From the NCBI GenBank assembly GCA_029937205.1, contig JAPYQV010000158.1, forward strand, positions 1 through 6,672: a DNA stretch of 6,672 nucleotides, in the 5' to 3' direction. Below, in pieces: positions 3,343 to 6,672 of this stretch. Each line of letters begins with the position of its first letter. Position 1 is the first letter of the stretch. The translations under genes were made by a program, and so were the position numbers. The notes under the pieces were generated by a model. That model was not told the DNA's origin. It did not search any database and worked only from the letters and a program-made list of their open reading frames with translations. Source of the DNA: Alphaproteobacteria bacterium. GTDB lineage: Bacteria > Pseudomonadota > Alphaproteobacteria > UBA828.

Positions 3343-3537
3343 TTGCCACGCAAACCCAACTACAAGTTTGAACGTTTTGAGCGCGAACGCGCAAAGGCCG
3401 AGAAGAAGGCCGCGAGATTGCAGGCGCGTGCCGATAAGAAAGCGGCCCTCTCCGGTGAGGACGCGCCGCCTGACGAAAATTCCAGCGAAGATATGTCCGA
3501 GACCCCGTCGGTGAACAGCGATACAACGCAGGATTAA
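3343..3537 (+). CDS. small conserved-type protein with basic coiled N-half and acidic tail, function unknown
   Basis: The ORF encodes 64 residues. An in-frame TGA at 3328-3330 leaves TTG at 3343 as the only credible start codon; GAGAG at 3332-3336 serves as ribosome-binding site 6 bases away. The protein begins MPRKPNYKFERFERERAKAE and continues as a Lys/Arg/Glu/Ala helix to about residue 36. It then switches to an acidic, Ser/Thr-rich, probably disordered tail (GEDAPPDENSSEDMSE and on). I recall small alphaproteobacterial proteins starting [MPARKPNY.FER], often near cold-shock genes, with no assigned function. No signal peptide, membrane segment or cysteine is seen. The charge layout suggests nucleic-acid or ribosome association, but that is a guess. 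It follows the cold-shock terminator by about 60 bases, so co-transcription would need read-through. Confidence 0.7.
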   Translation: MPRKPNYKFERFERERAKAEKKAARLQARADKKAALSGEDAPPDENSSEDMSETPSVNSDTTQD

Positions 3538-3593: not shown

Positions 3594-3719
3594 CTATTGC
3601 GCCGTGTAGCCGCCGTCGATGAACAGTTCGGCACCGGTGGTAAAGGCGGATTCGTCGCATACCGTGTGACGGGCGCCATTGGTGACATCCACTGGCTCGC
3701 GGACGGGGTCGCTGGCCAT
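3594..3719 (-). pseudogene. 3'-terminal fragment of an SDR dehydrogenase gene
   Basis: The minus strand from about 3704 down to a TAG at 3594-3596 encodes REPVDVTNGARH, ESAFTTGAEL and IDGGYTAQ, the C-terminal signature of a short-chain dehydrogenase. It aligns without gaps to the end of the intact SDR 1.4 kb to the right (GEPLDVANG, DSAFSTGAEL, IDGGYTAA). Over the last 36 codons I count 25 identical residues and 82 of 108 identical bases. The Rossmann fold, NNAG and YxxxK motifs are absent; upstream of about 3715 the similarity stops and the frame reads into unrelated sequence. An ATG at 3719 would give only 41 residues with no ribosome-binding site. It is a decayed relic of a second, related but already diverged SDR gene, or of an old duplication. 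Confidence 0.75.
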
Positions 3720-3871
3720 ACCACCGCCAAAAATAATCGTGCGCTTTGGCTGAAATTCAACCGCTAACTAACTTTCCTACATCTTTCCATTATTTCTGCG
3801 ATGGAATAGCATTTCACCTAACGGGGGTAATTAATTCAATTGCAGCGACGACATAACGGGAATATGGATTG
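3720..3871. other. AT-rich spacer upstream of the Sel1-repeat gene
   Basis: The stretch between the SDR relic and the Sel1 gene has no gene-like ORF. It presumably carries the promoter of the Sel1 gene (AT-rich run with AATTAATTCAATTG around 3826-3841), but I cannot assign boxes with confidence. Confidence 0.35.
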
Positions 3872-4874
3872 ATGCGGAAATTATTAATGGCCGCAATTGC
3901 CGCTTGTTTGCTCGTCTTCGCAGCGCCGGGTTCCGCTCAGGATTTCGAATCCGGGGAGCTCGCGTTTCATCAAGGTAACTACGAGGTGGCGCTAAGCGAC
4001 TTACGCCCGCTCGCAAACCTACACGACCCGATTGCACAGTTCAATCTCGGCGGGATGTACCGCGAAGGCCTAGGTGTCCCACAAGACAACGCTGAAGCGG
4101 CAAAAGTGGTTCCTCAGGGCTGCGATCGCGGGACATGCCATGGCACAACACAATATCGGGATAATGTATCTCGAAGGCAAGGGCGTGATTCCGGACGTTG
4201 TAGAAGCGGTAAAGTGGTTCAGCATGGCAGCGGCTCAGGGTGACGCCAATTCTCAATACATCATCGGAATTATAAATCTCGATGGGACGAGAGACTTTGT
4301 AGAAGCGGCGAAGTGGCTCGGCATGGCAGCGGAGCAGGGCCACGTCCATGCTCAATCTGCCTTCGGTTTATTGCACTGGACGGGACGGGGTGTCGCCCAG
4401 GATTATGCCGAGGCGGCGAAGTGGTATCGCAAGGCTGCTGAGCAGAGTGATCCTGACGCCCAAGCCAATCTCGGCCGCATGTACGATGAGGGCAGAGGTT
4501 TTCGGTATGATTACGTCAAAGCGGAAATGTATTATCGCCTGGCTGCCGCGCAAGACCATCCTGCGGCTCAGCTCCATCTCGGATTGATGTATGCCGACGG
4601 CGTGAACATGGCGATAGACAATGTGCTGGCGTATATGTGGTTCGAACTTGCGGCTGGCCAGGACCTTCGGAGCACAGACGAGTCAAGAACTGAGGCGGCC
4701 GTGGCGCGAGAATTAATAACGGAAGATATGACTCCTGAGCAAATTGCCGAGGCGAAAAAACTTGCTCGCGAGTGGCGACCAAAATCCAGTCCGGTAACGC
4801 GTTTATCCGAGGACGAGACGTCTCCCAGTACTGAAACGCCCAGCAACGAATCGAATAAGCGACCGCAACGATAA
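3872..4874 (+). pseudogene. secreted Sel1-repeat (TPR-like) protein interrupted by a +1 frameshift
   Basis: Sel1 repeats form alpha-alpha solenoids that act as scaffolds for protein contacts. ATG 3872 opens a signal peptide (MRKLLMAAIAACLLVFAAPG, cleavage after GSA, residue 22), so the product is probably periplasmic. After AEAA at 4091-4102 the frame runs into nonsense. Dropping one A from the A4 run at 4102-4105 restores AEAAKWFLRAA and continues to the stop at 4872-4874. The restored protein has 333 residues. Six repeats lie at about 51-87, 88-123, 124-156, 157-192, 193-228 and 229-265, with consensus AQ..LG.MY..G.GV..D..EAAKW...AA.QG. The C-terminal MTPEQIAEAKKLAREW (286-301) is typical of this protein class, followed by a Ser/Thr/Glu-rich tail. 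Repeat 3 lacks three residues. The first-frame product would stop at 4243. Neither half has a credible separate function, and the single-base cause may be mutation or a sequencing error. Confidence 0.85.
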
Positions 4875-4986: not shown

Positions 4987-5754
4987 TCAAGCGGCGGTAT
5001 AGCCGCCGTCGATGACCAATTCGGCGCCGGTAGAAAAGGCGGAATCATCGGATACCAGATGGAGGACGCCATTGGCGACGTCGAGCGGCTCGCCGACATG
5101 GCCGACCGGATGGAGCTTGCCGAATTCCGCTTTTCCGGTGGCGACATCGCCATACAAGCGGATTGCCGTGTCTTCCATCATCGGCGTGTGAATAAAGGCG
5201 GGGTGAACCGAATTGACCCGGATGCCGTCTCCGGCGCATTCCAGGGCGGCGCATTTGGTGAAGAGACGCACCGCTGCTTTGCTCGCCGTGTAGGCGGATA
5301 TCATCGCAGAGCCGGTAATGCCCAACACTGAGGATAGGTTAACAATCGCACCGCCGCCGCCACGCCGCATCAGCGGGATGGCGTGCTTGGTGCCGAGGAA
5401 TACGCCATCCACATTGACCGCCATGATCTGTTGCCAATCTTCCAACGCAGTATCCTCAATCCGACCCGACATGGTGATTCCGGCATTGTTGACCAGGATG
5501 TCGAGCCGGCCATAGGTTTTGTCGAGGGACTTCAAAGCGCTCTGCCAATCGGATTCCCGGGCGACATCAAGCGACAAATACAGGGCTTCCCCGTTTGCCT
5601 TTAGAATTTCCGCAACCACCGCCCGGCAATTGTTCTCGCTGCGCCCGGTGACGGCAACGCGCGCGCCTTCCGCTGCAAGACGCTGTGCCACCGCCCGTCC
5701 GATGCCGGCGCCGGCGCCGGTTACAAGAGCAACCTTGCCTTCGATTCTGCCCAT
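4987..5754 (-). CDS. short-chain dehydrogenase/reductase (classical SDR)
   Basis: This is an NAD(P)-dependent alcohol or ketone oxidoreductase; the substrate is not recognisable. From ATG 5754 the protein has 255 residues, the classical SDR length. Seen in order: cofactor-binding TGAGAGIG (12-19), D63 after the third strand, NNAG (89-92), N114, catalytic S142, Y155 and K159 (YTASK), HPAFIHTP (184-191) in place of the usual PG motif, and C-terminal IDGGYTAA. An arginine (R38) after strand two may favour NADP, which is uncertain. An upstream in-frame ATG at 5799 would add 15 residues (MPLGILKRRAGVGGD) before the normal MGRIEGKVALVTGAG. I reject it because it overlaps the palindrome at 5784-5801, while GGGGGAG and AGGAG lie just before 5754. 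The gene is convergent with the Sel1 gene and divergent from the GAF gene. Cyclopentanol- or steroid-dehydrogenase-like enzymes look similar. Confidence 0.92.
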   Translation of the reverse strand: MGRIEGKVALVTGAGAGIGRAVAQRLAAEGARVAVTGRSENNCRAVVAEILKANGEALYLSLDVARESDWQSALKSLDKTYGRLDILVNNAGITMSGRIEDTALEDWQQIMAVNVDGVFLGTKHAIPLMRRGGGGAIVNLSSVLGITGSAMISAYTASKAAVRLFTKCAALECAGDGIRVNSVHPAFIHTPMMEDTAIRLYGDVATGKAEFGKLHPVGHVGEPLDVANGVLHLVSDDSAFSTGAELVIDGGYTAA

Positions 5755-5942: not shown

Positions 5943-6440
5943 ATGAGCGCAATTCTCGAGTTTCTCGAGTTTATCGAGCAGCCAGGCAATCAATCGGTAC
6001 GGGATTTGCTTGACCGCGTTCTTATGAAAGCCCGTGAGATGACCGGCGCCGAAGCCGGCTCCATCTTCATCGTGCGCAAGTCCGGCCGGCAGGACTGGCT
6101 CGTCGCCAACAGTATCCAGAATGACAAAATAAAACTGAGCAAGGCGGATTTTCGCATCCCCATCGTGTCGACGTCGATCGCCGGCTATGTCGCCTCAACC
6201 GCCGAGACCGTGCTGATTGACGATTTCTATGCGATTCCGAAAAATGTCTCGTTCGATTTCGATCAATCTTTCGACAAGGCGACCGGCTATCGCTCGCGCT
6301 CGATGCTGGCATTTCCGTTGACGAATTTTCAAAAGAAAGTCATCGGCGTGGTGCAGCTCATAAATCGCCGCAAGGGTAATAGCGTGTCGCCGGTCGCCTT
6401 CGAGGATAAGCAGGCTGATTTGATTTTACCGTTCAACTAA
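5943..6440 (+). CDS. GAF-domain sensor half of an interrupted GAF/HD-GYP gene
   Basis: The ORF has 165 codons from ATG 5943, ending at a TAA in 6438-6440. Residues about 18-160 form a GAF small-molecule-binding domain: AEAGSIFIV (36-44), GYVAST (81-86), VLIDD (90-94), FDKATGYRSRSMLAFPL (110-126) and IGVVQLINR (134-142). The FDK..GYRSRSML stretch is typical of GAF domains in cyclic-nucleotide-type signalling proteins. There is no membrane segment, so it should be cytoplasmic. The ribosome-binding site is weak (GGGAG at 5926-5930, 12 bases away). GAF domains of this type normally feed a helix into an output domain. Here the same reading frame resumes after the stop as coiled coil and HD domain, so this is probably the 5' part of a longer gene. 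If translated alone, it would be a sensor without output. Confidence 0.8.
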   Translation: MSAILEFLEFIEQPGNQSVRDLLDRVLMKAREMTGAEAGSIFIVRKSGRQDWLVANSIQNDKIKLSKADFRIPIVSTSIAGYVASTAETVLIDDFYAIPKNVSFDFDQSFDKATGYRSRSMLAFPLTNFQKKVIGVVQLINRRKGNSVSPVAFEDKQADLILPFN

Positions 6441-6672
6441 ATTGTCGGCCGAGTGATTTAGCGTGCTGATATGCTTGAATAAATTAACAAGCGAAATGCG
6501 GATCTGAAAAGCAAAAACAAGACGCTGCGGGCGCAGCAAATGCAGATCGAATATTTACAGAAAGACACCGAAGAAGCCTTCATGGTGTCGATCCGCCTGC
6601 TCGCCCGTGCCGCTGAAGTGCATGACGAGGACACCGGCAATCACATCATCAGATGCAACGAATACGCCTTCC
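6441..6672 (+). pseudogene. coiled-coil linker and start of the HD-GYP domain, cut off from the GAF half by in-frame stops (3' end beyond the window)
   Basis: The frame of the upstream GAF ORF continues without indel: IVGRVI, stop, RADMLE, stop, then INKRNADLKSKNKTL, RAQQMQIEYLQKD, and EEAFMVSIRLLARAAEVHDE followed by DTGNHIIRCNEYAF at the edge. The linker is a heptad helix: I6483, L6504, L6525 and I6546 are exactly 21 bases apart. LLARAAEVHDEDTGNHIIR is the beginning of HD-GYP phosphodiesterases, which hydrolyse cyclic di-GMP; the metal-binding HD and GYP motifs would lie off the window. The stops are TAA 6438, TAG 6459 and TAA 6480. Each becomes Gln, Glu or Lys by one base change. A restart at ATG 6540 would include the HD domain, but it has no visible ribosome-binding site. 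Most likely this is a decaying gene. Confidence 0.75.

Follow-up and report, generated by a model that had tools for sequence, protein, structure and literature searches.

PmGH of Persephonella marina (PDB 4mcw, 4mdz and 4me4) combines a GAF domain, a long inter-domain helix and an HD-GYP domain, and its dimer is reported to rest on the GAF domain together with a helix of about 42 residues (PMC4159591). A second point of comparison is provided by the cyclic-di-GMP genes dgcE, dgcQ and dgcN of Shigella, in which nonsense mutations precede the catalytic domain; these degenerate genes are reported still to make cyclic-di-GMP, with several products (PMC11327459). In a survey of in-frame stop codons, independent stops at one codon are described as rare (Belinky et al. 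2021, PMC7918605). The gene considered here shares its domain plan with PmGH, but, unlike PmGH, the allele in the window stops inside the corresponding helix. Like the Shigella genes it is interrupted before its catalytic domain, although those genes encode synthases rather than a phosphodiesterase, and here three stops are found within 45 bases. In contrast to the rarity reported in the survey, protein ends at the same codons appear to recur here in more than one lineage. We propose that this gene, with its three linker stops, is probably a pseudogene of recent origin that is still polymorphic, and that its intact form is a predicted cyclic-di-GMP phosphodiesterase; a literature search covering titles and abstract openings recovered no report of its decay.

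An interrupted GAF-HD-GYP gene at the end of a contig

The window is the entire 6672-base contig (G000:C102) of a metagenome-assembled genome (MAG) of 630 contigs, which is 87% complete and 6% contaminated; its relevant features are collected in Table 1. The frame opened by the ATG at 5943 runs for 165 codons, meets TAA (6438-6440), TAG (6459-6461) and TAA (6480-6482), and is then open until 6672. A sequence-only reading had described three stops in one frame, 21 bases apart and with no indel, and both points hold: the spacing of 6438, 6459 and 6480 was confirmed, and the 243 codons align without a gap to the four congeners which carry the gene (78.6-83.3% ungapped nucleotide identity). That the GAF domain precedes an HD-GYP domain in one frame is seen from Pfam matches, which recover GAF in the window product and GAF, HD_5 and HD in the orthologue from the congener G002; the 44-residue piece of the window from 6540 matched no Pfam family by itself. 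Furthermore, the family profile can be aligned with PmGH over the two domains of structure 4mcw. The residues H266 and D267, and G327, Y328 and P329, are invariant in the G002 protein and 44 homologues, and the corresponding positions of the window fall past the contig end. As the HD-GYP tail thus lies beyond the contig, its decay cannot be shown, which leaves room for a split working gene. When the 87%-complete genome G000 was searched for the missing tail, the sole match was to a distant HD relative (24%, C535). No match to the gene came from viral contigs, and Rfam at gathering scores found no family in the window.

Table 1. Coordinates of the interrupted gene, its parts and two further damaged genes of the window
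Feature	Position	Strand	Basis or remark
GAF-linker-HD-GYP gene	5943..6672	+	243 of about 409 codons, truncated by contig end; G002 orthologue 409 aa
165-codon open part, predicted product GAF domain alone	5943..6437	+	ORF; Pfam GAF at residues 20-144
GAF domain PF01590, residues 20-144	6000..6374	+	Pfam
Stop 1, TAA, codon 166	6438..6440	+	Gln or His in four congeners; P0001 ends alike
Stop 2, TAG, codon 173	6459..6461	+	Glu in 45/45 aligned sequences
Stop 3, TAA, codon 180	6480..6482	+	Gln in four congeners; P0002 and P0003 end at 179
Inter-domain helix	6438..6581	+	homology to helix alpha5 of PmGH; extent inferred
HD-GYP start, in frame, conserved	6582..6672	+	ATG 6582 (codon 214) a possible internal start; P0060 begins at that codon
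Sel1-repeat gene, broken	3869..4874	+	frame change between 4083 and 4240 relative to intact 341-aa G002 gene
PNPOx-like gene, reduced to 69 codons	974..1183	+	201 aa in G002

The gene is whole in three of five congeners (G002 and G003, 409 aa each; G001, 419 aa as listed from an upstream start), so that three stops in the window stand against intact frames in three orthologues. The copy of G004 (L004, G004:C39) shows a frame change near residue 364, read from DNA, and G005, which is 86% complete, gave no match to the gene. The named records carrying it are alphaproteobacterial MAGs, for example Rhodospirillaceae bacterium SI073_bin108, MarineAlpha10_Bin2 and ERR599062_bin.171, and their record names suggest a marine origin. 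At the stop sites the congeners L002, L003, L004 and L005 have Q, Q, H and H respectively at codon 166, and all have E at codon 173 and Q at codon 180. In an alignment of 45 sequences, with rows picked among the matches listed and G002 placed first, residue 173 is Glu throughout, residue 166 is His (23), Arg (16), Gln (5) or Asn (1); at residue 180 there are 22 Arg, 18 Gln, three Asn, one Thr and one Lys. The sequence-only reading had noted that all three stops are one T-to-C step from Gln and also convertible to Glu or Lys; in the relatives the middle site, 173, is Glu and not Gln, which requires a G-to-T change.

The possibility that the stops are errors of sequencing or assembly near the end of a MAG contig of presumed low coverage draws on their position 190-235 bases from that end, on the fragmented (630 contigs) and partly contaminated (6%) state of the assembly, and on the damaged look of two more window genes. 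Against it stands P0001, a 165-residue protein from a 4188-base contig, 99% identical to the window product with one residue different and ending at the same residue. Its source label is the one that is also given to proteins encoded by the window, but its sequence and the length of its contig both differ from those of the window, so that stop 166 very likely exists in another assembly, and error, which had been listed among the options, is unlikely at least for this first stop. For stop 173 the window's own clade provided no second copy. To our knowledge three substitutions without an indel within 45 bases are not the usual pattern of error, and 24 other genes of the genome are free of lesions. 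On balance we regard error as improbable.

These 24 genes come from a comparison with G002, whose genes were taken to be ORFs of at least 80 aa. Against the collinear G002 contig, three of eight window genes are damaged (three of six at the 80-aa limit of the control), as opposed to none of 24 on the G002-aligning parts of four other G000 contigs (C2, 10; C5, 8; C6, 3; C7, 3). The window count took in two genes below 80 aa (cold-shock, 69 aa; 3343-3537) and left out two ORFs: one of 107 aa in G002 (59%), which lies in the spacer that precedes the cold-shock gene and meets four stops in the window, and one of 104 aa, with one stop, which runs antisense to that gene. Three ORFs were left out of the control count, namely one of 87 aa that lay in two frames, one of 218 aa that runs antisense to a larger gene and one of 752 aa, for which the match reached just 57%. 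The count kept one of 118 aa, which we take to be PII-like and whose flagged stop precedes its likely ATG, and one of 361 aa that overlaps another gene at its first residues. In the reverse comparison two ORFs antisense to counted genes, of 146 and 182 aa and with one and two stops respectively, were left out as well. The broken Sel1-repeat gene is 63% identical to that of G002; in the LysR, SDR and DEAD-box genes identity is 85-92%. In the PNPOx-like gene the first 51 residues match (83%), the last residues resemble the G002 end by eye, and about 120 codons are absent between them. The neighboring SDR gene is unbroken over its aligned part in four congeners. The notion of an error-ridden genome finds no support in this comparison, given the absence of lesions on the four control contigs.

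Two further features were seen. A stretch at 3600-3704 is a leftover of an SDR gene 3' end (77% over 35 residues to the G002 SDR), separate from the intact SDR gene ending at 4987. At L057:1676-1790 lies an interspersed repeat of about 110 bases; this contig has 48 matches in G002, of which 42 fall on the repeat, and the repeat occurs at four further places on 20 G000 contigs.

Spacing, termination and selection

The sequence-only reading had held that random decay would not be expected to yield three stops in one register within so short a span. When three nonsense hits were dealt over codons one step from a stop, a span of at most 15 codons had a probability of about 0.01 over all 243 codons and of 0.07-0.10 from the linker onwards; a shared heptad register, assigned by eye, had a probability of 0.015-0.029, and the exact 7+7 spacing one of 0.00007 to 0.0016. 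These figures overstate the surprise, because the spacing was singled out after being seen. In light of the simulated chances the claim was too strong, even though ends at the same codons elsewhere remain suggestive. Codons for Gln and Glu, a single step from a stop and set at position g of successive heptads, likely account for the equal spacing, and its exact 7+7 form is a post hoc oddity favored by the presence of these residues at one heptad position.

A directed C-to-T process had also been offered as a source of the stops, and we considered it as a deaminase-like one acting on the linker. Codons 144-200, a region chosen after the fact, do show C-to-T changes at seven of 34 sites (p 0.011 relative to control genes, where the count is 169 of about 2321); over the whole gene the count is 18 of 170, which is not significantly above the controls (p 0.13). 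Moreover, the middle stop arose from Glu by a G-to-T change, and therefore such a process cannot have made all three. Neither the whole-gene rate nor the middle stop supports a single directed process, and we consider it extremely improbable.

Alternatively, conditional read-through or suppression, or a reading of TAR as Gln, could join the GAF and HD-GYP domains across the stops. The frame stays open past them, omega is low after them (see below), and the survey of in-frame stops reports them as widespread in bacterial genes whose dN/dS stays below 1 (PMC7918605). On the other side, losses would be expected to multiply over three stops in a row, and the middle site is Glu rather than Gln. In addition, among 93 ORFs of at least 200 aa called mechanically on 20 contigs, TAA ends 31 and TAG 25; these 56 terminators, together with Glu at the middle site, speak against codon reassignment, in agreement with the sequence-only reading, which had found full reassignment unsupported. 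A stop anticodon was sought in the 19 tRNA genes which ARAGORN could read at 21 Rfam hits of this incomplete genome (two hits were unread), and none was found. Suppression, another of the options raised earlier, has gained no positive evidence, and joining of the domains by read-through appears very improbable.

Under a codon model with five genomes, the window branch has an omega of 0.072 over codons 1-165 and of 0.078 over codons 181-243; neither value differs from the background (p 0.45 and 0.62, respectively). Omega lies below 1 in both the GAF part (p 7e-11) and the part after the stops (p 0.03), and relaxed selection, with omega near 1, was not found after the stops by this test (omega 0.08). 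As the window branch is long, omega mostly records the time before the stops. The low values therefore imply that the stops are very recent or that the gene still works in pieces, and argue against long-standing decay. The earlier suggestion of relaxed decay in a linker with Gln or Glu at each g position thus stands as far as the residues of the relatives fit it, while its relaxation is not seen in the codon test.

Lesions and recurrent ends in relatives

We placed 35 proteins on the G002 reference (at least 73% identity, plus P0056, which looks chimeric), drawn from 58 matches, 120 listed of 7700 and 120 listed of 831. Seven of them (P0178 to P0184, with six extra residues in P0180) span residues 1-409, and the other 28 are broken or partial, some possibly just cut by contig ends. 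Apart from that of G004, these lesions were read from predicted proteins of metagenome contigs, and contig ends or faulty assembly may explain some of them. The first protein search could return only lengths of about 91 to 289 residues, a design that favors broken forms, and the census covers this gene alone.

On the tree the window clade comprises seven rows (support 85/82; inner six rows 98/92). Within it the window and P0001 stop at 166, P0002, in which Gln 166 and Glu 173 are retained, lacks seven residues and ends at 179, P0005 lacks the same seven residues and ends at 135, P0004 and P0011 change frame after 133 and 100 respectively, and P0053 ends at 61. No intact copy from this clade was found among the matches listed (120 of 831), where 90% clustering could conceal one in the G002 cluster. 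A second lineage (100/99) has a frame change after 332 in P0116, shared by P0123, which is off the tree, another after 79 in P0026, and a protein end at 179 in P0003. A third lineage contains two different late frameshifts, near 364 in G004 and after 376 in its near-identical kin P0185. Sister alleles thus carry further, apparently independent lesions, comprising protein ends, frame changes and one deletion (seen in proteins, and in DNA for G004). Across the tree, rows labeled "broken" cluster no more than they do in shuffles (8 changes versus a shuffled mean of 7.0), a result that repeated loss and random fragmentation would explain equally well.

Outside the window clade 11 proteins (P0003, P0006, P0007, P0008, P0009, P0012, P0035, P0057, P0058, P0134 and P0158) end before 409 with no long changed-frame tail, and three of these ends fall on stop sites of the window, namely P0003 at 179 and P0006 and P0035 at 172. 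The latter two could reflect one-base insertions rather than a stop at 173. By this informal count, protein ends in other lineages seem to coincide with the window's stop codons more often than random decay would produce, and this coincidence is the sole part of the finding which raises it above ordinary decay. This brings up the possibility, which we consider remote, that evolution in the genus repeatedly cuts GAF-HD-GYP proteins at the same three heptad positions, in a selected domain fission by nonsense codons. If true, such fission would leave the GAF domain and the HD-GYP phosphodiesterase as two free proteins and shorten the signaling helix heptad by heptad. As a separate observation, P0008 and P0134 share an end at residue 322, immediately ahead of the conserved Trp 323, which is another possible recurrent end.

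A pseudogene or a divided gene

By analogy with PmGH, intact relatives would sense a ligand through the GAF domain, pair via this domain and the long helix, and hydrolyze cyclic-di-GMP by the HD-GYP domain, an activity that is predicted for them. The product of the broken allele would be a GAF fragment of 165 residues that lacks the enzyme part and most of the helix, and loss of function of this copy is likely. The stop at 180 was likely the first to arise, because the close relative P0002 ends at 179 with the residues at the other two sites kept; this order rests on the P0002 protein end, on a 2489-base contig. With translation already terminated at codon 180, additional linker stops ahead of it would have carried no cost.

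The alternative that the gene is split and still used, with a free GAF protein and an HD-GYP protein made from an internal start at ATG 6540 or ATG 6582, would account for the low omega, which is well under 1 before the stops as well as after them. ATG 6582 sits five bases after GAAGAAG, and relatives with the HD-GYP domain only begin at 177 (P0134), 186 (P0123), 188 (P0059 and P0158) and 214 (P0060). Among these, P0059 (cluster size 27) and P0060 (cluster size 2) extend to the natural end at 409. The nonsense-bearing diguanylate cyclase genes of Shigella, as described in PMC11327459, offer a precedent. However, these HD-GYP-only starts are choices of the gene caller, some of which may be contig edges, and the low omega mostly pre-dates the stops. 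Furthermore, strains of the same clade also break the GAF half (P0004, P0011 and P0053) and sister lineages break the HD-GYP half too (P0116, P0123, P0185 and G004). We therefore consider a divided working gene unlikely and favor a pseudogene.

At the level of the genus, a predicted cyclic-di-GMP phosphodiesterase is apparently being lost by several routes in a marine group known from MAGs, which is a possible sign that this cyclic-di-GMP switch is dispensable there. The family would also form a convenient natural series for asking whether stops in a signaling helix leave two working halves.
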